This document shows, piece after piece, positions 3,208 through 35,920 of a stretch of DNA of 64,000 nucleotides (positions are counted from its first letter, which is position 1; every line of letters begins with the position of its first letter). The stretch comes from Geothrix paludis. GTDB taxonomy: Bacteria; Acidobacteriota; Holophagae; Holophagales; Holophagaceae. The stretch spans positions 124,001 to 188,000 of the forward strand of contig NZ_JAKZLC010000006.1 of assembly GCF_022808815.1 (NCBI RefSeq), given 5' to 3'. A program made the translations under genes and the position numbers. The notes beneath the pieces were generated by a model. The model did no database searches. It was not told the DNA's origin and was given only the letters and a program-made list of their open reading frames with translations.

Positions 3208-4848
3208 ATGTTCTCGATCCGAGACCTGAAGATCAGGACGAAACTGTTCCTGGCGTTCGGGATCATCGCCGCCCTCCTCGTGGCCGTGGCCCTGGTCGGC
3301 AACAACGCCGTCGACCAGCTCAGCCGGGAAGCCAACGGCATCCTGAGCCACGAGTACGTCCTCGCCGAGGCTTTCACGAACATCGGCACGGATACCCTCA
3401 ACCTGCGCCGCTACGAGAAGGATGTGTTCCTCAACTACGAGGACGCGGCCAAGCGGGAGGGCTACGTCCGGAAGTGGAAGGAGACCCACGCCTCCCTGAT
3501 CGAGACCCTCGACCAGGTCGAGAAGCGGCTCGAGACCAGTGAGGACAAGGATGCCGTCCGGGCGATCCGCCTGGACCTGGGCACCTACAGCACGGAGTTC
3601 GAGCGCGTGCTCCCCCAGATCGACATGGGCCTGTTCAAGACCTCGCAGGAGCTGAACAAGGCGGAGGATCCCTTCAAGGACTCCGTCCACCGGCTCGAGG
3701 CCACTGCGGAAAAGGCGATGACCAGGCATGAGAAAGAGATGACCGCGAAGGCCCAGCAGATGCAGGGTTTCTCCCAAGCCGTCCTCCGGATGGTCATGGT
3801 GGTCACGATCGCCTCGGTGGTCGCGGCGCTGGTGGTGGCGTGGCGGATCTCCCGGGGCATCTCCGTCCCCCTGCTCCGGGTGGCCGAGGGCATGCGGAAG
3901 ATGGCCGATGGCGACCTGAGGGACAAGGTCGACGTGTCAGGCAAGGACGAGCTGGCCGAGATGGGCGCCGCCTACAACCGCATGGTGGAGAACCTGTCCC
4001 AGACCATCGGAGAGGTGAGGACGGGTGCCAACGCCCTGGCCTCGGCGGCCCAGCAGGTGTCCTCCACCTCGCAGGGGCTCTCCCAGGGGACCAGCGAGCA
4101 GGCCTCTTCCGTGGAGGAGACCACCGCCAGCCTGGAGGAGCTGAGCAGCTCCATCGAGCAGAACGCCGACAACAGCCGCCAGACCGAGCAGATGGCCATG
4201 CAGAGCGCCCGGGATGCCGACGAGAGCGGCCAGAGCGTGGAGAAGACCGTCGAGGCCATGAAGATGATCGCCGAGCGCATCTCGATCATCGAGGAGATCG
4301 CCTATCAGACCAACCTGCTGGCGCTGAACGCGGCCATCGAGGCGGCGCGGGCCGGCGAGCACGGCCGGGGCTTCGCCGTGGTGGCCACCGAGGTCCGCAA
4401 GCTGGCGGAGCGCAGCCAGGGCGCGGCCAAGGAGATCAACGAAGTGGCCGGCGGCAGCGTGGGCGTGGCCATCAAGTCGGGCGAGCAGCTGAAGGAGCTC
4501 GTCCCCGCCATCCGCAAGACCGCCGAGCTGGTCCAGGAGGTCGCGGCCACGTCGCGCGAGCAGGCCAGCGGCGTGAAGCAGATGAACAAGGCCATGACCC
4601 AGGTGGACCAGGTCACCCAGCGGAACGCCTCGGCGGCGGAGGAGCTCTCCTCCACGGCGGAGGAGCTCGCCTCCCAGGCGGAAGCCCTCCAGCAGTTGGT
4701 GGCCTTCTTCAAGGTGACCGGGGATGAGGCGGTTGCACGGCACGCCCCCGCCGCCCACTTCATGCATCCGGAACCCGCCCCGCTGGCGGGCCGGGCCATG
4801 AAGCCCGCGGTCGCCCTCGGCCAAGACCAGCACTTCAAGCGGTTCTGA
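3208..4848 (+). CDS. methyl-accepting chemotaxis protein
   Basis: Transmembrane chemoreceptor of 546 aa. TM1 spans about residues 13-33, a helical periplasmic ligand domain of four-helix-bundle type follows (about 34-190), TM2 is about 192-213, then HAMP ([14 protein letters not shown] onward). The cytoplasmic signalling hairpin contains the highly conserved tip [20 protein letters not shown] and the motif [18 protein letters not shown]. Gln/Glu-rich stretches on both arms are candidate methylation and deamidation sites for CheR, CheB and CheD. After the bundle comes a flexible tail of about 50 residues ending HFKRF, which fits the x-aromatic-x-x-aromatic CheR/CheB docking pattern. The start is preceded by AAAGGAG. 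The ligand is unknown. Confidence 0.95.
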
Positions 4849-4858
4849 GGAGGCGGGG

Positions 4859-5407
4859 ATGGACACGAGCGTTCTGGCCGACCTGGCCAACCACGACCAA
4901 AGCCAGTACCTGTCGTTCTTCATCGCGGACGAGGAGTTCGCGGTGAGGATCCTGAAGGCCCGGGAGATCCTGGAGTACGGGACGGTCACCAAGGTGCCCG
5001 GGGCCCCTCCGACGGTGCGCGGGGTGATCAACCTGCGCGGCGCCGTGGTGCCCGTGGTGGACCTGGCGCTGAAGTTCGGGCTTCCCGAGCGGGAAGTCAC
5101 GAAGCGGACCTGCGTCGTGATCGTCGAGGTGGGCGCGGGCGAGGACAAGACGACCATGGGGGTGATCGTGGATTCGATCAGCCAGGTGGTGGACCTTCCG
5201 GAGGAGCAGATCGAGCCGGCGCCGGACTTCGGGACCAAGGTCAAGCTGGAGTACCTGCTCGGGATGGGGCGCTCCGGGAAGAAGTTCGTGATGGTCCTGG
5301 ACATCGACAAGGCCCTGTCCCCCTCCGAGCTCTCCTCGGTCACCGCCATCGCGGGGCAGGCCGCGGAGGCGGCGCTGGAAGGCGCGGACCCCGCGTCAGG
5401 CGACTGA
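4859..5407 (+). CDS. cheW: chemotaxis coupling protein CheW
   Basis: CheW bridges chemoreceptors and the P5 domain of CheA. The 182-aa protein is a single CheW/SH3-like fold: QYLSFFIADEEFAV at the start, then the signature VRGVINLRGAVVPVVDL, and VIVDSISQVVDLPEEQIE in the second half. There is a short acidic C-terminal extension after LSSVTAIAGQ. It starts 10 bases after the MCP stop behind GAGGAGGCGGGG and is followed 16 bases later by cheR, so it is in the middle of the operon. No membrane segments. Confidence 0.96.
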   Translation: MDTSVLADLANHDQSQYLSFFIADEEFAVRILKAREILEYGTVTKVPGAPPTVRGVINLRGAVVPVVDLALKFGLPEREVTKRTCVVIVEVGAGEDKTTMGVIVDSISQVVDLPEEQIEPAPDFGTKVKLEYLLGMGRSGKKFVMVLDIDKALSPSELSSVTAIAGQAAEAALEGADPASGD

Positions 5408-5423
5408 AAGGCCACCCCCAGCC

Positions 5424-6341
5424 ATGGACCAACCGCGGCGTCCCGCCTCTCCCGCGTCTGAGGCCGCGGGAGACTACTCGATCCGGAAGGAGGAGTTCCG
5501 CGCCTTCCAGGACCTGATTCACCGGGAATCCGGGATCTTCCTCGCGGACCACAAGCTGGCCCTCTTGGGCGGCCGCCTCCACGCGCGACTCCGCGCCCTG
5601 GGCCTGACCAGCTACGGGGAGTACTTCAAGGCCGTCCAGAAGGACGAGGCTGAGCGCATCGAGATGCTGGACCGGATCTCGACCAACGAGACCCACTTCT
5701 TCCGGGAGCCCCACCAGTTCGAATTCCTGAAGGCCCGCGTGCTGCCCAGGTGGGTGGAGGACGCGCGGGCCGGAAGGCGCCCCCGGTCCATTCGGGTCTG
5801 GAGTGCCGCCTGCTCGACGGGGGAGGAGCCCTACTCCATCGCCATGCTGCTGCTGGACCAGCTCCCGTCCGCGGAGGGCTGGTCCATCGAGATCCTGGGC
5901 ACCGACATCTCCACCCGGGTGCTGCAGAAAGCCAAGGACGCAGTGTGGCGCATCGAGAAGGCCGAGGAGATCCCCACGCCCTACCTCAAGGCCTTCATGC
6001 TCGAAGGGACGGGCCCCGAGAAAGGCAAGATGAAGGCCGGGCCGGAGATCCGGTCGCTGGTCTCCTTCTCCCGGATGAACCTGAACAGCCGGCCCTACCC
6101 CGTGCCCGGCGGGTTCGACATCATCTTCTGCCGGAACGTCCTGATCTACTTCAACACGGCCACCAAGGCGGGGGTGGTGGAGGAGCTGCTGGCGCACCTG
6201 GCGCCGAGCGGCCTGCTGCTCCTCGGCCATGCCGAAAGCCTCCACGGCCTCACCGAGCAGGCGCGCAGCGTGGGACCCACCATCTACGCGCCGCTCCAGT
6301 CCACCTACTTCAGCGGGCAGAAGCTGCCACGGCTGCGCTGA
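5424..6341 (+). CDS. cheR: chemoreceptor methyltransferase CheR
   Basis: CheR transfers methyl groups from S-adenosylmethionine to receptor glutamates for adaptation. The N-terminal helical domain (about 20-100) contains ISTNETHFFREPHQFE, the family signature. The SAM-binding Rossmann domain shows IRVWSAACSTGEEPYS, LGTDIS and FDIIFCRNVLIYF. The length of 305 aa is normal for a CheR without TPR repeats. The first 24 residues are a poorly conserved polar extension. The MCP at 3208 carries a possible docking tail for its beta subdomain. The ribosome site is weak (AAAGG at 5407-5411). Confidence 0.95.
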   Translation: MDQPRRPASPASEAAGDYSIRKEEFRAFQDLIHRESGIFLADHKLALLGGRLHARLRALGLTSYGEYFKAVQKDEAERIEMLDRISTNETHFFREPHQFEFLKARVLPRWVEDARAGRRPRSIRVWSAACSTGEEPYSIAMLLLDQLPSAEGWSIEILGTDISTRVLQKAKDAVWRIEKAEEIPTPYLKAFMLEGTGPEKGKMKAGPEIRSLVSFSRMNLNSRPYPVPGGFDIIFCRNVLIYFNTATKAGVVEELLAHLAPSGLLLLGHAESLHGLTEQARSVGPTIYAPLQSTYFSGQKLPRLR

Positions 6342-6465
6342 CCGTGATTTCAGGGGCCGGGCACGGCCGCCGATAAGAACCCTGACGTACGTATTCTCTT
6401 GTCTCGCGGCATCGGGCCACGTACTTCTTTAGCCAGGCCAGGACCACGCAGGCAGGTGGAGCGCG
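6342..6465 (+). other. intergenic region cheR-cheB
   Basis: A 124-base gap, the largest inside the chemotaxis cluster. It contains GCCGATAA at 6369-6376, identical to the -10 element of sigma-28 promoters, but no good TAAA -35 element at the expected distance (TCAG occurs there). Two related short stretches, ACGTATTCTCTT and ACGTACTTCTTT, occur further on. It may hold a separate promoter for cheB, but this is weak. Confidence 0.25.
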
Positions 6466-7545
6466 ATGTCAGAACTCCAGCGGAACCCCGGACAGCTCCC
6501 GATCCAGGTCCTGGTCGTGGACGATTCGGCCGTGGTCCGGCAGGCGCTCACGGCCATCCTGGGCCAGGAGCGGGACATGCGGGTGGTGACCGCGCAGGAT
6601 CCCATCTTCGCCCTCCAGAAGATGCAGACCCTGAGGCCGGACGTCATCGTCCTGGACCTCGAGATGCCCCGCATGGACGGCATCACCTTCCTGCGCCGGC
6701 TGATGAAGGACGATCCCCTGCCCGTGGTGATCTGCTCGAGCCTGGCCGCGCGGGGGGCGGAGGCGGCCATGCTGGCCCTCGAGGAGGGGGCCCTGTCGGT
6801 CATCACCAAGCCCCAGCTCGGCGTCCGGGACTTCCTGCACGAGTCGGCCATGCAGATCATCGACACGGTGCGCGCCGCCGCCCACTCCCGCCTGCGCCGG
6901 AGGCGGGCCGCGCCCCAGCACCGGCCGCCCATCGAGACCGGGGTGCCTGTGCTGGGGACCACCACGGACCAGGTGGTGGTGGTGGGGGCGTCCACGGGGG
7001 GCACGGAGGCGCTCCGGGAGCTGCTGTCCACCATGCCGGTGGATTGCGCGGGCATCGTGGTCGTCCAGCACATGCCGGAACTGTTCACCGCGGCCTTCGC
7101 CAAGCGGCTCAACGAGGTCTGCCGGATCGAGGTGAAGGAGGCCGAGGACGGGGACGGGATCCTCGTGGGACGCGCCCTGATCGCCCCCGGGAACCGCCAC
7201 ACGGAGGTGGCGCGGTCCGGCGGCCGCTACGTGGTCCGCGTGAGCGACGGGCCCCTGGTCTCCCGCCACCGCCCGAGCGTGGACGTCCTGTTCCACTCCG
7301 CCGCCCGCGCCGCCGGGTCCAACGGGGTGGGCGTGATCATGACGGGGATGGGCGATGACGGCGCTAACGGCATGCTGGAGATGAAGCGGGCCGGCGCCTA
7401 CAACCTGGCTCAGGACGAAGCCTCCTGCGTGGTGTACGGCATGCCCAAGGAGGCGGTGGAGCGGGGCGGGGTGGACGCTGTGGTGCCGCTCCAGGCGCTG
7501 CCGAAGGCCATCCTGGACGCCGTGCGGCGTGGGTGGCGGGGCTGA
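6466..7545 (+). CDS. cheB: chemoreceptor glutamate methylesterase CheB
   Basis: CheB removes receptor methyl groups and may deamidate receptors. The receiver domain covers about 13-130 with phospho-acceptor Asp64 (VLDLEMPRMDG) and Lys115 (ITKP). A basic linker (SRLRRRRA) leads to the catalytic domain with Ser176 (VVGASTGGTEAL), His202 (VVQHMPELFT) and Asp298 (MTGMGDDGANG). The Ser-His and His-Asp spacings match the E. coli enzyme. 359 aa is normal. It is separated from cheR by 124 bases and ends 16 bases from a convergent gene, closing the chemotaxis operon. Confidence 0.96.
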   Translation: MSELQRNPGQLPIQVLVVDDSAVVRQALTAILGQERDMRVVTAQDPIFALQKMQTLRPDVIVLDLEMPRMDGITFLRRLMKDDPLPVVICSSLAARGAEAAMLALEEGALSVITKPQLGVRDFLHESAMQIIDTVRAAAHSRLRRRRAAPQHRPPIETGVPVLGTTTDQVVVVGASTGGTEALRELLSTMPVDCAGIVVVQHMPELFTAAFAKRLNEVCRIEVKEAEDGDGILVGRALIAPGNRHTEVARSGGRYVVRVSDGPLVSRHRPSVDVLFHSAARAAGSNGVGVIMTGMGDDGANGMLEMKRAGAYNLAQDEASCVVYGMPKEAVERGGVDAVVPLQALPKAILDAVRRGWRG

Positions 7546-7561
7546 GGCGCCCACTCGGCCG

Positions 7562-9172
7562 CTATTCAGCTTTGATGCGCACCGAGAAGGAGTACATCTT
7601 CGAGTTGGAGTACCGCGTGACCACGCGGAAGTTCCGCAGCAGGTACCAGCACCGGGCCTTCACGTTGCCGTCCGGGGTGGAGGACCAGAGGTTGGATTCG
7701 TCGTCCGGATTCAGGAAGTCGCCGTACGGGTTCCGGTGGCCCACGAAGGGGATCTCCAGGATGGCCTGACCATTCGCCAGACGGCTGTTGTCGCTCAACC
7801 CCGGGATGGCGTCGAAGATCGTGCCCCACTCGTCGTCCGAGGGGATGCGGGACCCGAACAGCTTCATGGCGGCGTGCCAGGTGAACAGGGTGTTCCCGTT
7901 GAACTCGTAGATGCCCTCCCGGTGGTCCGGAGCGGCGACTTCGTTGTGGCGCCGGAGCCCGATGCCCCCCACCTCGACGGAATCCGGGTGGACGGTGATG
8001 GCGTGGACCTTGGCCAGCTCTTCCGGAGTGCTGGCGTAGCGCTCCTCCAGCTCCTGGAGGAACTGGACCACGGGGTCGTCCGCCGGGGCGGTGTGGCGGG
8101 CGGGAGAGGGCGTCGGGGCGGGCCTCTCCGGCTGGAGCCGGACGGTCCCCAGCAGGAGGTCGGCCTCCTGCTGGAAGGTGGACAGGGGAACCTGGATGCC
8201 CGCCTCGATCAGCTTGGCGGCCCGGGCGATGCGTTCGGACAGCACGCCGTGGATCAGGAGCGCCTCCTCGTGGAGGCGGATGATCTCCGGGGTGTCCAGG
8301 GGAGCCGGGGGGCTGGGGGCCGGGTGGAACAGGAGCTGGGCACCCGCGGGGGTCAACTCCTTGCCCCGGGATGGCTCGAAGCTGGGGCGTGTGTCTTCAT
8401 GGAGGAGGTCGGGCGGGATGGCCCTGGGGGGCGGCTGGATGACGGGGGGGATCCGGCCGGAGGTCTCCGGAGAGGAGGATCCCTCCGCTGGCGCGCGCAA
8501 AGCCTCATCCCGCAGCCTCAGGCCCTCCAGGAGCACCATGGCCGTGCTCTCCCGGATGGAGTGCATGGGCGCCTCGGTGCCCTCCTGCATGTCGAAGTTG
8601 CCGCCCTTCCAGGCGATGAGGTCGTAGACCGCCTGGGCCCCGGTGACCTGGTCCCGGACCGCGTGGACCACCTGGCCGTCCTTGAGCCAGACGCGGCCCG
8701 TCTGCCGGCCCAGCCGCACGGTCAGGCAGCCCGTGTTCCGGGTGGCGGAGTAGAGCTGGACGAGGTCCACGAACCCCAGGCTCAGGGAGCCGGTGAAGCC
8801 GCCCTGGTTGGACTGGATGGCGAGATCGACCTCTTCGATGAGGGCCTTGGGGGCGAACGGCTTCTCGACGAAGCCGAAGGCGCCCCGCTGGTCGATCTCC
8901 TTGCGCATCTGGGGGCTGCCGAAGGCCGTGATGAAGATGATGGAGAGGTCCGGCTGGATCTTCTGGGCCTGGATCATCAGGTCGATGCCGTTCACCACGG
9001 GCATCTGGAAATCGGTGATCAGGACGTCGATCTTCTCCCGATGGAGGAGGGACAGGGCCTCCATGGGGTTGGAGCAGATCTTGAAATCCACGGTCGGGCG
9101 CTCGCGTGCGAAGTGCTGAGACACCGACCAGAGGAGATCCTCTTCGTCATCCACCATCAGGACACTGGCCAT
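7562..9172 (-). CDS. response regulator: REC - PATAN/DUF4388 - C-terminal Fib_succ_major-like domain
   Basis: 536 aa. Residues 1-120 are a receiver (VLMVDDEED, acceptor Asp54 in LITDFQMP, Lys in VEKPF). Residues about 125-225 match the PATAN/DUF4388 pattern (GSLSLGFVDLVQLYSATRNT, LTVRLGRQTGRVWLKDGQVVHA). A Pro-rich linker with one helical stretch follows. The last about 120 residues resemble the Fibrobacter succinogenes major paralogous domain, a C-type-lectin-like fold: FTWHAAMKLFG, SRIPSDDEWGTI, IPFVGHRNPYGDF, NLWSSTPDG, YSFSVR. That domain is usually found in secreted proteins, yet no signal peptide exists here. The start is the ATG just before VLMVDDE; an upstream ATG at 9211 would add 13 residues, and neither has a clear ribosome site. 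Confidence 0.8.
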   Translation of the reverse strand: MASVLMVDDEEDLLWSVSQHFARERPTVDFKICSNPMEALSLLHREKIDVLITDFQMPVVNGIDLMIQAQKIQPDLSIIFITAFGSPQMRKEIDQRGAFGFVEKPFAPKALIEEVDLAIQSNQGGFTGSLSLGFVDLVQLYSATRNTGCLTVRLGRQTGRVWLKDGQVVHAVRDQVTGAQAVYDLIAWKGGNFDMQEGTEAPMHSIRESTAMVLLEGLRLRDEALRAPAEGSSSPETSGRIPPVIQPPPRAIPPDLLHEDTRPSFEPSRGKELTPAGAQLLFHPAPSPPAPLDTPEIIRLHEEALLIHGVLSERIARAAKLIEAGIQVPLSTFQQEADLLLGTVRLQPERPAPTPSPARHTAPADDPVVQFLQELEERYASTPEELAKVHAITVHPDSVEVGGIGLRRHNEVAAPDHREGIYEFNGNTLFTWHAAMKLFGSRIPSDDEWGTIFDAIPGLSDNSRLANGQAILEIPFVGHRNPYGDFLNPDDESNLWSSTPDGNVKARCWYLLRNFRVVTRYSNSKMYSFSVRIKAE

Positions 9173-32433: not shown

Positions 32434-32461
32434 GATCCTTCGTCACGATCTGCGAGGCCTC

Positions 32462-32731
32462 ATGAACCGCTCCCTCTTCTGGACCACCTTCGCCACCGTC
32501 TTCCTCGCCGAGGTGGGCGACAAGACGCAGCTCGCGGCCATGACGGCGACGGTGCGCAGTGGGCAGATCTGGACCGTGTTCCTGGCCGCCAGCGCGGCCC
32601 TGGTGTGCGCCACGGCCATCGGCGTGGCCCTGGGTGGCGTGCTGTTCAAGTACATCCCCGAGGCGGCCATCAAGTGGGTGGCGGGGGTGGCCTTCATCGC
32701 GGTGGGCCTGTGGGTGCTGATCAAGGGCTGA
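32462..32731 (+). CDS. half-size GDT1/UPF0016 family transporter
   Basis: 89 aa, three predicted membrane helices. The signature EVGDKTQLAAM of the GDT1/TMEM165/MneA family occurs at residues 15-25. Family members move Mn2+ or Ca2+ out of the cytoplasm against H+ and normally carry two such halves with two E-x-G-D motifs; this gene has only one, so it must act as a homo- or hetero-oligomer. The start ATG 32462 follows GCGAGGCC. The next gene overlaps or starts immediately. Confidence 0.85.
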   Translation: MNRSLFWTTFATVFLAEVGDKTQLAAMTATVRSGQIWTVFLAASAALVCATAIGVALGGVLFKYIPEAAIKWVAGVAFIAVGLWVLIKG

Positions 32732-33150
32732 GTCCTAGCCAGAACCCGGTCCCGGGCCTGGTCCCGGGGCCGACCCGCGTCTTCTACGACGGCGGCTGCG
32801 GCCTCTGCCATGGGGCGGTGCGCTTCGCGGCCCGGCGCGACATCCTCGGGCGCCTGCGCTTCGCGCCCCTGGACGGCCCGACCTTCCGGCGGACCGTGCC
32901 CGTGGAGGCCCGCCGTGATCTGCCGGACAGCCTGGTGGTCCTCACGGCCGAGGGCGAGGTGCTGTCCCGCTCGGAAGCCGTCCTCCACCTGCTGGGGCGG
33001 CTGGGATTGCCTTGGCCCGCGGTGGCCGCCGCCTTGGCCTGGGTGCCCGTTCCGCTGCGGGACGGGATCTATCGCCTGGTGGCCCGCCTCCGGCGCCGCC
33101 AGGAGGCCTGTGCCCTCGTCGCCCCTGGAGACGACCGGTTCGAGCCATAG
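32710..33150 (+). CDS. DCC-family thiol-disulfide oxidoreductase-like protein (DUF393)
   Basis: About 146 aa. The DUF393 signature TRVFYDGGCGLCHGAVRF contains the D-x-x-C-x-x-C motif that names the DCC family; SLVVLTAEGEVLSRSEAVLHLLG and the helix GIYRLVARLR also fit. The fold is thioredoxin-like and the role is poorly known. The true start is unclear: GTG 32710 overlaps the GDT1-like gene by 22 bases, and a CTG at 32728 is the only other option before the domain. It precedes the DUF692 cluster by 151 bases, so a thiol-related link is possible but unproved. Confidence 0.78.
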   Translation: MGADQGLSPSQNPVPGLVPGPTRVFYDGGCGLCHGAVRFAARRDILGRLRFAPLDGPTFRRTVPVEARRDLPDSLVVLTAEGEVLSRSEAVLHLLGRLGLPWPAVAAALAWVPVPLRDGIYRLVARLRRRQEACALVAPGDDRFEP

Positions 33151-33301
33151 AAATTTTAAAGTGTCACAAAGCCCCCCGGCCCGGCACTCCAAAGGCTGAC
33201 GACAGCACCACAGTCCCAACCCCCCGCTCCCGGGGGAGGGACTTCGTCCCACCAGCGGGGCCGCTCGGCCCCAGGCGCGGCCCTGGCCGCAAGGAGGATC
33301 C
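33151..33301 (+). promoter_or_regulatory. leader of the DUF692 RiPP operon with two hairpins
   Basis: AT-rich start (AAATTTTAAAGTG at 33151-33163, possible promoter core) followed by a GC-rich leader. GGGACTTCGTCCC at 33238-33250 and GGGGCCGCTCGGCCCC at 33257-33272 are perfect hairpins placed one after the other. AAGGAGG at 33291-33297 is the ribosome site for the precursor gene. The stacked hairpins could be an mRNA stabiliser or attenuator. I recognise no metal-responsive box. Confidence 0.4.
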
Positions 33302-33628
33302 ATGATCACCAAACTCATCGGGGCGGCCACCCTGTTCGCAGCCGGCTCCCTGGTCGCCGGCGCGCCGGCCACCCTGGGCGCCGTGTCCGTCGAACCCTTC
33401 GGTGCCGACGCCGCCCTCAGCACCGCCGCCGGTTGCGGCGCCAAGGACGCCAAGGACGAGGGCAAGGCCGCCGCCAAGGACGCGAAAGCCAAGGACGGTT
33501 CCTGCGGCAAGGGCTCCTGCGGCAGCAAGGACGCCAAGGCGAAGAAGGGGGCCAAGGACGGCTCCTGTGGCAAGGGCTCCTGCGGCAGCAAGGACCCGAA
33601 GAAGGACGCCCCCGCGGACAAGAAGTAG
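33302..33628 (+). CDS. secreted Cys-rich RiPP precursor (HvfA/bufferin-like)
   Basis: 108 aa. The N-terminus is a signal peptide (LIGAATLFAAGSLVAGAPATLGA). After a spacer come Lys/Ala/Asp-rich stretches and two copies of KDGSCGKGSCGSKD (64-77 and 85-98). Cysteines are at 45, 68, 73, 89 and 94. In HvfA and bufferin precursors EGKCG-type repeats are the sites where a DUF692 enzyme turns Cys residues into oxidised heterocycles; here the unit is GSCG. The next two genes encode that enzyme and its partner, which makes the assignment strong. The product may bind metal, as bufferins bind copper. Expression should be high, judging by the perfect AAGGAGG. Confidence 0.85.
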   Translation: MITKLIGAATLFAAGSLVAGAPATLGAVSVEPFGADAALSTAAGCGAKDAKDEGKAAAKDAKAKDGSCGKGSCGSKDAKAKKGAKDGSCGKGSCGSKDPKKDAPADKK

Positions 33629-33638
33629 CGGAGGACGC

Positions 33639-34523
33639 ATGGCTCAGGGCAGATCTCCCGGATCCTTCCAGGGCGTGGGCCTGGGCCTCCGGCGCGCCCA
33701 CCTCGACGAGGTGGCGGCCCGGGAGGACCACGGCGTCCCCTTCTGGGAGACCTGCCCGGAGAACCTGATCGGGGATGGTGGCCGCCACCACCGGCTGGCT
33801 TCCGCCATCCTCGACCGGGACCCGGTTCTCACCCACGGCCTGGCCATCTCCCTGGGCGGCTTCGACCCCTGGGACGGGGACTACCTGCGCGAGCTGGACC
33901 GCTTCCTGGTCCGCGCGGGCACGCCCTGGCACTCCGAGCACCTCTGCTTCACGGGCGTGGACGGCAGCTGCCTCCACGAACTGCTGCCCCTGCCCTTCAC
34001 CCATGAGGCGGCCCGGCACACCATCGCCCGGGCCCGGGACCTCCAGGCCCGCCTGCCCGTGCCGCTCCTGCTGGAGAACATCACGTACTACGCCCACCTC
34101 GGCGAGCCCGAGATGGATGAGGCGGCCTTCATCGCCGAGGTGCTGGAGGGCGCGGACGTGGGCTGGCTGCTGGACGTGAACAACGTCTACGTGAACGCCC
34201 TCAACTTCGGCTTCGATCCCAAGGCCTGGCTGACCCGCATGCCCCTGGACCGCGTGGCCCAGATCCACATCGCCGGCCACAAGAAGTTCGGATCCATCAC
34301 CGTGGACACCCACGGCGCGGATGTGATCGATCCCGTCATCGAGCTCATGCAGTGGACCCTCGCCCGCCTGGGGCGGCCCGCCCCTGTGCTGCTGGAGCGG
34401 GACAACCACATTCCGGATTTCGGGGACCTCCTGGCGGAGCGAGCCCGGATCCAGGCCGCCTATGATGCGGCGCTGGCCCCGGCAAAGACGGAAGCCGCGC
34501 CGGCGGAGGTCGTCCGTGTCTGA
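33639..34523 (+). CDS. multinuclear non-heme iron oxidase, DUF692 (MbnB/BufB/HvfB family)
   Basis: 294 aa, TIM-barrel family. Enzymes of this group modify Cys or other residues of a ribosomal peptide with iron and oxygen. Motifs seen: FWETCPENLIG, WHSEHLCFTG, LLLENITYY, WLLDVNNVYVNALN, IHIAGH, VDTHGADV and LLERDNHIPDFGDLLAE; they contain the conserved His, Glu, Asp and Asn residues that bind two or three irons. Start ATG 33639 follows CGGAGGA 10 bases after the precursor stop. Its end overlaps the partner gene by 8 bases. The last 20 residues are a poorly conserved Ala/Glu tail. Confidence 0.92.
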   Translation: MAQGRSPGSFQGVGLGLRRAHLDEVAAREDHGVPFWETCPENLIGDGGRHHRLASAILDRDPVLTHGLAISLGGFDPWDGDYLRELDRFLVRAGTPWHSEHLCFTGVDGSCLHELLPLPFTHEAARHTIARARDLQARLPVPLLLENITYYAHLGEPEMDEAAFIAEVLEGADVGWLLDVNNVYVNALNFGFDPKAWLTRMPLDRVAQIHIAGHKKFGSITVDTHGADVIDPVIELMQWTLARLGRPAPVLLERDNHIPDFGDLLAERARIQAAYDAALAPAKTEAAPAEVVRV

Positions 34524-35286
34524 GTCCCGCACCTTCCGCCTCCAGCGGGCCATGGCCTCCCTGATCCTGGATGACGAGCCGGAGGACATCGGCGCGCCGG
34601 CGGAACGCCTGGGGCTCCCGGCGGGTGACCCGCAGGCCTTCCGTGACCAGCCCGAGGCCATGGACCTGTACCGGGAGCTGGCCCGCCTGAGCCTCACGGA
34701 ACCCCTGGAGACGACCTTCCCTGTCCTGAAGGCCCTGCTCGAGGGTGCGGAGGTCTGGGAGGACTGCGCGCAGGCCTTCCTGTCGGCCCGGGTGGTGCGG
34801 AGCACCCACTACCGCGACATCGCCCCCAGCTTCCTGGGCTGGCTCGTGGATACGGGCTGGGGCCAGGACCGCTGGCCCTTCCTAGCGGAACTGGCCCACG
34901 CGGAGCTCCTGGAGGTGCTGGTGGCCCGCTTCCCGGAGGCCGATCTGCGCCAGGATCTCCATGACGAGCCGGGTCCCGGGGATGTCGTGTGGCTCGACCC
35001 CGGAACCCAGGTGGTGGCCTATGCCCACGCCGTGCATCGGGCCACCGAGGCGGCCCCCGTGCCCGAGGCGCGGCCCACCCACCTTCTGGCCTTTCGGGAT
35101 GAGGAAGGCGAGGCCCGGGTGCTGGAGCTCACGGCGGCCACCGCCACCCTGCTCGTCCAGGCGCGCACGCGCCCACTGGCCGAATCCGCGGCGGCCCTGG
35201 GCCTCTCCGATCCGGCCCCGGCGCTCGCCCTCCTCCGGGATCTGCGCCGGCAGGGCGCCGTCCTGGGCTTCCGCGCGCCCCACTGA
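34516..35286 (+). CDS. DUF692 partner protein, DUF2063 type (HvfC/BufC-like)
   Basis: 256 aa. The N-terminal half (about 1-95) has the DUF2063 pattern: FRLQRAMASLIL, LDLYRELAR-like helix, LEAAFPVLKALL-like TTFPVLKALLEG. It is normally found next to DUF692 enzymes, where it binds the precursor leader and presents it to the oxidase. The C-terminal half (from HAELLEVLVARFPEADLR) is the weakly conserved domain seen in HvfC. The GTG start at 34516 overlaps the oxidase by 8 bases with GGAGG at 34505-34509, so the two are co-translated. Confidence 0.85.
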   Translation: MSESRTFRLQRAMASLILDDEPEDIGAPAERLGLPAGDPQAFRDQPEAMDLYRELARLSLTEPLETTFPVLKALLEGAEVWEDCAQAFLSARVVRSTHYRDIAPSFLGWLVDTGWGQDRWPFLAELAHAELLEVLVARFPEADLRQDLHDEPGPGDVVWLDPGTQVVAYAHAVHRATEAAPVPEARPTHLLAFRDEEGEARVLELTAATATLLVQARTRPLAESAAALGLSDPAPALALLRDLRRQGAVLGFRAPH

Positions 35287-35338: not shown

Positions 35339-35920
35339 ATGCGACTCCGCGCCTTCGCGCCCCTGCTTCTGTTGACCCTTTCCCTTGCGGCCCAGAGCCG
35401 GACCTTCCGAGTGGACACCACGCACACGGTGCTGGGCTTCAAGGCCTCCACCCTGCTCTTCGACGTGCCGGGCCGCTTCACCCAGTACAGGGCCGACATC
35501 CAGGGCGACCCGGCCACGCTGGAGGGCGCGAAGGTCCGCCTGGACATCGACGCGCGCTCCGTGGACACCGCCAATGGCACGCGCGACGAGCACCTGCGCT
35601 CCCCGGACTTCTTCGACGTGGCGAAGCACCCCGCCATCACCTTCGTGTCGCGGGAGGTGAAGCGGGAGGGAGACAAGGTGGTGGTACGCGGCACGCTCAC
35701 GATGCATGGGGTGAGCCGGGAGCTGAGCCTGCCCTTCACGCCCGCGGAGGGCACGAACGGGGCCGGGGCCCACACGTGGGCCTACCGGGCCACGCTGCCA
35801 CTGGATCGCCTCGACTACGGCGTGGGGGCCGACAGCGTGGCCGCCAAGATCAGCCTGAAGCGGCAGGTGGAGCTGGACCTGATGCTGGTGGGATTCTTCG
35901 ACGCGCCGGGGAAGAAGTAG
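35339..35920 (+). CDS. YceI-family periplasmic lipid-binding protein
   Basis: 193 aa. Signal peptide MRLRAFAPLLLLTLSLAAQ, then the YceI lipocalin-like barrel: FRVDTTHTVLGFKAST, KVRLDIDARSVDT, DEHLRSPDFFDVAKHPAITF, GTLTMHGVSRELSLPF. YceI proteins bind isoprenoid chains such as those of quinones. It starts 52 bases after the DUF692 partner gene behind GAGG on the same strand and may belong to that operon. In known bufferin loci the fourth gene is often a DoxX-type membrane protein; YceI would take that place here. Confidence 0.92.
   Translation: MRLRAFAPLLLLTLSLAAQSRTFRVDTTHTVLGFKASTLLFDVPGRFTQYRADIQGDPATLEGAKVRLDIDARSVDTANGTRDEHLRSPDFFDVAKHPAITFVSREVKREGDKVVVRGTLTMHGVSRELSLPFTPAEGTNGAGAHTWAYRATLPLDRLDYGVGADSVAAKISLKRQVELDLMLVGFFDAPGKK

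Follow-up and report, generated by a model that had tools for sequence, protein, structure and literature searches.

The closest described relatives of the system reported here are the captophorins, a group of ribosomally synthesized and post-translationally modified peptides (RiPPs) in which a DUF692 multinuclear iron oxidase (MNIO) and a partner protein strip four hydrogens from each core Cys, which closes with the preceding carbonyl to form a 5-thiooxazole (PMC13097082). The MNIO of these relatives uses a mixed-valent diiron center and O2, the products bind Cu, and the thiooxazole copper peptides studied come from Pseudomonadota in the papers cited (PMC13097082, PMC13419390, PMC12538549, PMC12452194; these and all other papers are cited from the portions of their text that were available). 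In a published structure, the residue before the Cys donates its backbone carbonyl to the thiooxazole; FonBC processes Ala, Arg, or Thr at this site (position 3) but hardly Phe or Glu, and needs a small residue after the Cys in most substrates (PMC13097082). The studied fon cluster consists of the precursor, MNIO, and PME1 genes only (PMC13097082). Here, we describe three adjacent genes for a Cys-rich precursor, an MNIO, and a PME1 partner within a 64,000-nucleotide stretch of the soil bacterium Geothrix paludis (contig NZ_JAKZLC010000006.1, positions 124,001 to 188,000; hereafter the window), taken from a genome of 3.4 Mb in nine contigs. Geothrix is an iron-reducing genus of the Holophagaceae (Acidobacteriota). 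By analogy with the studied relatives, we propose that the locus is a captophorin-type MNIO-PME1 RiPP cluster in which core Cys residues would be converted to copper-binding 5-thiooxazoles, a reading to which we assign a probability of about 0.7.

The three components by which captophorins are recognized (PMC13097082), an MNIO, PME1, and a Cys-rich precursor, all occur in this one locus. The first-pass annotation had placed a DUF692-type RiPP cluster here, with a Cys-rich precursor whose core is unlike EGKCG. This assignment is confirmed by Pfam matches and gene order, and the coordinates, gene lengths, 8-base overlap between the MNIO and PME1 genes, and 52-base gap between the PME1 and YceI genes were reproduced exactly on re-measurement. 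The hidden Markov model search that it had proposed as a check placed the enzyme in the DUF692 family (PF05114; 289 bits, cut-off 25) and the partner in DUF2063 (49.4 bits, cut-off 27.2), with a further match of the partner to NGO1945_C (40 bits, cut-off 27). The AlphaFold2 model of the MNIO (predicted local distance difference test score, pLDDT, 88) has 3BWW as its best PDB match (E 6.9e-22; 41% identity across aligned fragments), followed by TglH and MbnB. The top fold match of the PME1 model (pLDDT 93) is 3DEE/NGO1945 (E 1.3e-6), followed by TglHI entries; a plain phmmer search of PDB chains with PME1 (E up to 1) had no match. The MNIO residues H66, H101, E146, D179, N182, H210, D223, H225, E253, and D255, which include the candidate metal ligands and the catalytic Asp, are invariant in all 92 aligned MNIOs. 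Matched by motif rather than by alignment to the FonB and HvfB sequences, N182, D223, and H225 correspond to HvfB N175, D242, and H244, the Ala variants of which are inactive (PMC13419390), D255 corresponds to the proposed catalytic base of FonB, and R18 and R19 retain the two Arg residues with which FonB reads the acidic residue at position 1. The source genome holds this single MNIO. In all 23 loci of the genus flank set (L035-L057, with only 682 bases downstream in L057), the MNIO is followed by PME1.

The precursor has Cys at positions 45, 68, 73, 89, and 94. The last four lie in two near-identical KDGSCGKGSCGSKD blocks (33491-33532 and 33554-33595), as the first-pass annotation had it, and Cys45 is an additional fifth. 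All five are followed by Gly and preceded by Ser (four) or Gly (one), and the core motifs are DGSCG and KGSCG. Relative to EGKCGEGKCG, the C-x4-C pairing is kept, as is the (acid)-G-x-C-G register at the first Cys of each pair; it is mainly the residue before the Cys that is altered, from Lys to Ser, with the Gly after the Cys retained. The kept spacing, the Gly after the Cys, and the tolerance of FonBC together favor 5-thiooxazole formation at Cys68, 73, 89, and 94. At least three [DEK][GA][SKGT]CG motifs occur in one reading segment of the window and in 0 of 60 first-order Markov simulations of it, so the precursor motif is not a product of chance. Codon differences from the two nearest relatives (nine synonymous versus five nonsynonymous, and 12 versus six, with all Cys kept) are a small sample that says little more than that the precursor is read as a protein. 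By eye, its N-terminus (MITKLIGAATLFAAGSLVAG...) resembles a Sec-type leader, from which secretion is predicted. No Pfam family matches the precursor at E up to 1. The precursor has no paralogue in its own genome (the one match is the gene itself), and belongs to none of the three captophorin categories (DUF2282, Lys-Cys repeat, and Cys-Lys) given in the available text of PMC13097082. PHROGs contained nothing for the precursor, MNIO, or PME1.

An MNIO is encoded in 33 of 47 genomes of the genus (24 of the 30 best assemblies), in 46 of 77 of the family, and in 84 of 297 sampled from the phylum. In a search with an alignment led by the window MNIO, the nearest named relatives were Geothrix terrae SG184 and Geothrix sp. 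SG200, with MNIOs 95% and 94% identical to the query in the best segment. Of 53 genus loci, many of them duplicates, 52 have a Cys-bearing precursor open reading frame (ORF) called upstream of the MNIO, giving 33 distinct precursors. Core counts were based on Cys beyond residue 30 in ORFs called by a simple rule. By this measure, the 172 Cys sites of the Geothrix precursors comprise 115 S-C-G, 27 G-C-G, 8 D-C-G, 6 K-C-G, 5 T-C-G, and 11 others, and the leading five-mers are DGSCG (42), KGSCG (28), and EGSCG (26). Other Holophagaceae contribute 11 distinct precursors (from 16 loci, five without a call), in which the listed classes comprise 83 sites, 24 of them S-C-G and 23 K-C-G. Loci L134-L163, whose record titles name Myxococcota or Deltaproteobacteria in nearly every case, yielded 24 distinct precursors (30 loci, six without a call) with S-C-G at 65 of 94 sites. 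The first-pass description of the GSCG core as unusual does not stand up to these counts, nor to the EGSCG motifs of a cluster on a Pseudomonas aeruginosa plasmid. The precursor of that cluster (P0005) carries KEGSCGEAKCG, EGSCG, and EGNCG, and exceeds the cut-off of the NCBI HvfA domain model (32.1 bits, cut-off 19.5); it is accompanied by an MNIO scoring above the HvfB cut-off (406.3 versus 360), a PME1 over the HvfC cut-off, and a DoxX gene. A search of the phage collection (E 1e-5) found no relative of this MNIO. A Myxococcales EGSCG precursor narrowly passes the same domain model (21.5 bits, cut-off 19.5), and the Moraxellaceae plasmid precursors L177 and L178, which belong to the enzyme group of the P. 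aeruginosa plasmid MNIO, carry DAKCG/EAKCG repeats. The precursors of genus g6 (L058-L061) have DGKCG/HKCG repeats and end in DASCGKGSCGSK in three cases and in DASCGKSSCGSK in L059; Lys and Ser cores therefore occur within one gene. The mixed Lys/Ser cores in g6 and in the P. aeruginosa plasmid argue that GSCG is a variation on the EGKCG theme and no separate principle. The EGKCG repeat that the first-pass annotation attributed to HvfA and bufferin precursors alike does apply to the HvfA/oxazolin/fontiphorin group, but not to bufferins 1 and 2, which are of DUF2282 and Cys-Lys types (PMC12452194, PMC13097082). Short Myxococcota-type precursors (L134-L157 and L163) are rich in EASCGEGSCG, and many have a lipobox-like leader (MTAACKSDD...), with which they are possibly lipid-anchored.

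The MNIO tree comprised 93 rows with a midpoint root, and no order of descent is claimed from it. A first tree was flagged for long branches; L172, L077, L079, L080, and L081 were dropped and L177-L182 added, and the second tree was again flagged for a long branch, that of row L182. The 36 Holophagaceae MNIOs formed one group (support 100/100), as did 24 Myxococcota-type MNIOs (100/96), of which one is titled Proteobacteria and three are of unstated phylum. These two groups join (95/86), apart from both the HvfB-type rows (3BWW, L169, L177, and L178) and the Buf1/Buf2-type rows. The clade that they form, with mainly Ser-Cys-Gly cores, is, as judged from this tree, distinct and new. The tree retains MNIOs of other Acidobacteriota families, which fall among or beside Buf2-type rows (four very distant rows were dropped), and the Cys-Lys-like cores of these families (e.g., CKGKNDCKG) pair with another MNIO branch. 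L074, from the window's own family but from a genome with 8% contamination, also has its MNIO among Buf2-type rows. In L077-L083, from other Acidobacteriota families, the MNIO lies downstream of an ORF with a Ser/Gly/Cys-rich tail (SSCGSSCGSGCGGGCGG), which resembles the TIGR04222 type of PMC12452194 by description only.

FonB Phe250 contacts substrate positions 3 and 5 (PMC13097082). Its equivalent is Phe in four of four HvfB-type rows and Asn256 in the window MNIO; the 36 Holophagaceae rows have Asn in 25 (including the window), His in six, Ser in three, Thr in one, and Gln in one, and of the 24 Myxococcota-type rows, 15 have Asn as well. That this pocket residue changes together with the residue before the Cys was rejected as a rule: Asn accompanies Ser cores and Lys cores alike in Holophagaceae, and is also present in L180-L182, which have another precursor type, and Phe accompanies Ser cores in the P. 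aeruginosa plasmid. Loci L064 and L071 have basic cores (RCGRRCA repeats) beside an MNIO with Leu for the second Arg of the RR pair. Loss of this Arg (FonB Arg16) as a correlate of basic cores fits these two loci, with their GRRCA cores, but was likewise rejected as a rule, with Tyr at this position in 17 of 24 Myxococcota-type enzymes, though their cores are mostly acidic, and Gly or Ser in L072 and L018, which have EGSCG or DASCG cores.

Gene order, protein families, predicted folds, conserved ligand residues, and conservation of the cluster form the ground of the proposed reading, in which the modification, the metal, Sec export, and copper protection are modeled on the studied relatives. 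The RiPP recognition element (RRE) domain of PME1 would hold the precursor and position it for the MNIO, which, with a mixed-valent diiron center and O2, would take four hydrogens off each core Cys; the Cys would then close with the carbonyl of the preceding Ser to form a 5-thiooxazole. The likely targets are Cys68, 73, 89, and 94, with Cys45 doubtful. The leader would route the peptide via Sec, and in the periplasm or outside the paired thiooxazole-thiols would bind a soft metal, most likely Cu(I). The role of the leader-bearing YceI protein is a guess: it might act there on the product or on redox or lipid stress.

Several observations weigh against this captophorin-type reading. At the second Cys of each pair, position 1 is Lys instead of an acidic residue, and FonBC left unprocessed a substrate in which both position 1 residues were Arg (PMC13097082). 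The FonBC variants named in the available text of the same paper do not include Ser at position 3, and the pocket of the window MNIO has Asn256 in place of Phe250. The equivalog scores stay below their cut-offs for the MNIO (HvfB, NF003818; 260.9 bits, cut-off 360), PME1 (HvfC, NF050145; 99.9 bits, cut-off 142), and the precursor (HvfA, NF050188; 17.3 bits, cut-off 95). The precursor also has no match to the HvfA domain model NF050137 at E up to 1, and the other Holophagaceae precursors tested, L060 and L043, likewise miss both HvfA models. The MNIO scores 249.9 bits against the BufB model (cut-off 310) and 30.8 bits against the methanobactin MbnB model TIGR04159 (cut-off 325).

The order of genes in the window is GDT1, DCC1-like, a 151-base gap, precursor, MNIO, PME1, and YceI, followed by a metallophosphoesterase gene on the opposite strand; coordinates are listed below.

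Table. Features of the MNIO-PME1 locus and its neighbors (window positions)
Feature	Coordinates	Strand	Remarks
RiPP precursor	33302-33628	+	108 aa; leader by eye; two KDGSCGKGSCGSKD blocks
MNIO (DUF692, PF05114) maturase	33639-34523	+	294 aa; Pfam, fold match 3BWW
PME1 partner, DUF2063 + NGO1945_C (RRE-type)	34516-35286	+	GTG start; Pfam, fold match 3DEE
YceI-family protein	35339-35920	+	PF04264; leader by eye
DCC1-like thiol-disulfide oxidoreductase	32710-33150 (about)	+	PF04134; GTG start inferred
Intergenic stretch with conserved AAGTGTCACAAAG element at 33159-33171	33151-33301	+	
GDT1 divalent-cation antiporter gene	32459-32731		Overlaps DCC gene by ~22 bases (DCC start inferred)

The YceI protein matches PF04264 with 127.2 bits (cut-off 23.7), and its gene, at the 52-base gap noted above, is probably an operon member in the window. 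YceI is encoded within 1 kb downstream of the cluster on the same strand in 12 of the 23 genus loci, one of which is the radical S-adenosylmethionine (SAM) cluster L045, and outside the genus at L072, L068, and L091, the last from another Acidobacteriota family. It was found in 0 of 34 loci in L134-L167, and YceI as part of the wider clade was dropped as a candidate. A phmmer search with five DoxX queries detected DoxX in 0 of the 23 genus loci, and the same search found it in L074-L076 and L164; the first-pass statement that YceI stands in place of DoxX thus holds for part of the genus but not as a general rule. The DCC1-like gene reported upstream of the precursor is present (PF04134; 76.5-76.7 bits, cut-off 27.8). 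It is probably a neighbor rather than part of the system, because it lies 151 bases away and is missing from several clusters that keep YceI; it went undetected at L045, L046, L050, L055, L068, and L072, all of which have YceI. Both DCC and GDT1, which accompany the cluster in part of Geothrix and are missing in several YceI-keeping loci, were set aside as system parts. Among 30 genus loci (L001-L030), 15 have a AAGTGTCACAAAG-like element (at most two mismatches) behind an A/T run, ~480-570 bases 5' of the MNIO; the others, including L004, L017, and L022, which retain YceI, lack it. The element is a possible promoter or regulator site. At L045 (4569-8341; the same place as L127, Geothrix fermentans DSM 14018, NZ_KE386810.1) and at L068 (reverse complement, about 4594-8734), a radical SAM/SPASM gene is inserted between a GSCG-type precursor and the MNIO, with PME1 and then YceI after the MNIO; at L068, a thioredoxin-like gene is also recognizable by eye. 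The inserted gene of L045 scores 59.6 bits against Radical_SAM and 24.2 bits against SPASM, and its NCBIfam scores spread across 65 families, including heme b synthase (110.4 bits) and the SbtM thiooxazole maturase (105.9 bits, cut-off 350).

The same kind of enzyme might make another product (e.g., an oxazolone-thioamide) or modify one Cys per pair, and the peptide might bind another metal, such as iron or zinc. The separation of the MNIO clade from HvfB-type and BufB-type rows, the replacement of the Phe250 equivalent in all 36 Holophagaceae rows, and the precursor, MNIO, and PME1 scores below the HvfA, HvfB, and HvfC cut-offs would fit such a divergence. However, FonB F250A and F250D still yielded 5-thiooxazole (PMC13097082), the pocket residue does not track the precursor (Asn or Thr in the g6 enzymes with DGKCG cores, Phe in the P. 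aeruginosa enzyme with EGSCG cores), and all MNIO-PME1 products characterized to date bear 5-thiooxazole, according to the available text of PMC13097082; we consider this alternative unlikely. The first-pass annotation had taken the GSCG core as a sign of other modified residues or another metal. A different chemistry or metal is possible, but the core argues for it only weakly, since the Cys spacing is kept, the residue before the Cys gives its backbone carbonyl, and FonBC tolerates Ala, Arg, and Thr there.

The need of MNIO chemistry for O2 (PMC13419390), set against the description of Holophagaceae as anaerobic isolates (PMC13362970), counts against the captophorin-type reading and would suit a mainly unmodified, Cys-/Lys-rich, metal-binding secreted peptide, with the MNIO little used for want of O2. 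Yet the MNIO is kept in 33 of 47 genus genomes with invariant ligand residues and PME1 adjoining it throughout the flank set, and PMC13362970 also links the same cited Holophagaceae study with facultatively anaerobic Acidobacteriota. Moreover, genes for COX1-family heme-copper oxidases are present in 21 of 21 genus genomes and those for bd oxidase in 20 of 21; the cells therefore probably meet O2 at times. An O2-dependent maturase in Geothrix is possible, and a mainly unmodified peptide seems improbable to us. A further, quite unlikely proposal combines two parts: Ser-Cys captophorins of Holophagaceae and Myxococcota would be a fourth precursor class with its own MNIO clade and a YceI helper in Geothrix, and their ring would be formed via the MNIO when O2 appears and, in L045/L127 and L068, also free of O2 via the radical SAM/SPASM enzyme, with the same type of precursor as its substrate. 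If true, a copper-trapping peptide would be ready on both sides of an oxic-anoxic shift.

That the locus represents a variant of MNIO-PME1 thiooxazole peptides undescribed in the literature searched is well supported. Among the matches listed for the strings EGSCG, DGSCG, and GSCGK, no title concerned MNIOs, and YceI did not appear among those listed for YceI combined with DUF692, bufferin, DUF2063, or MNIO. The terms 'SCG', YceI, Geothrix, and Acidobacter are absent from the main texts of PMC13097082 and PMC12452194, the supplementary tables of which could mention them. The captophorin-type reading would extend thiooxazole copper peptides to Acidobacteriota and Myxococcota, and the natural Ser, Gly, Ala, and Thr residues before the Cys would offer ready substrates for work on ring formation and metal choice, for which designed variants were formerly used. 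It also raises the question of why bacteria isolated as anaerobes retain an O2-dependent RiPP enzyme.

Among known systems, the SbtM thio(seleno)oxazole system likewise takes four hydrogens off Cys to give a thiooxazole (PMC11002830), but SbtM is a radical SAM enzyme, of which the window's cluster has none. Bufferins 1 and 2 (DUF2282; Buf_6/12Cys, Cys-Lys) share the MNIO, PME1, a proposed role in copper protection (PMC12452194), and, as judged by eye for the window precursor, the Sec leader, but belong to other precursor families. Bulbicupramide (MmrABC, Microbulbifer) likewise combines an MNIO, a DUF2063 protein, and a repeat precursor, with four hydrogens lost per Cys (PMC12538549); it differs in its EGKCG repeats and its phylum. 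The captophorins (fontiphorin FonABC, oxazolin HvfABC, and gonophorin NgoABC) share with the window's cluster the order precursor-MNIO-PME1, a leader peptide (by eye in the window), Cys pairs five residues apart, the acid-Gly-x-Cys-Gly register, the Arg pair and catalytic Asp of the enzyme, and the folds of 3BWW and 3DEE. They have Lys before the Cys, whereas the window precursor has Ser (its relatives also Gly, Ala, and Thr), and FonB has Phe250 where the window MNIO has Asn; with no DoxX detected, the window's cluster is further set apart by its YceI gene and its Acidobacteriota host.

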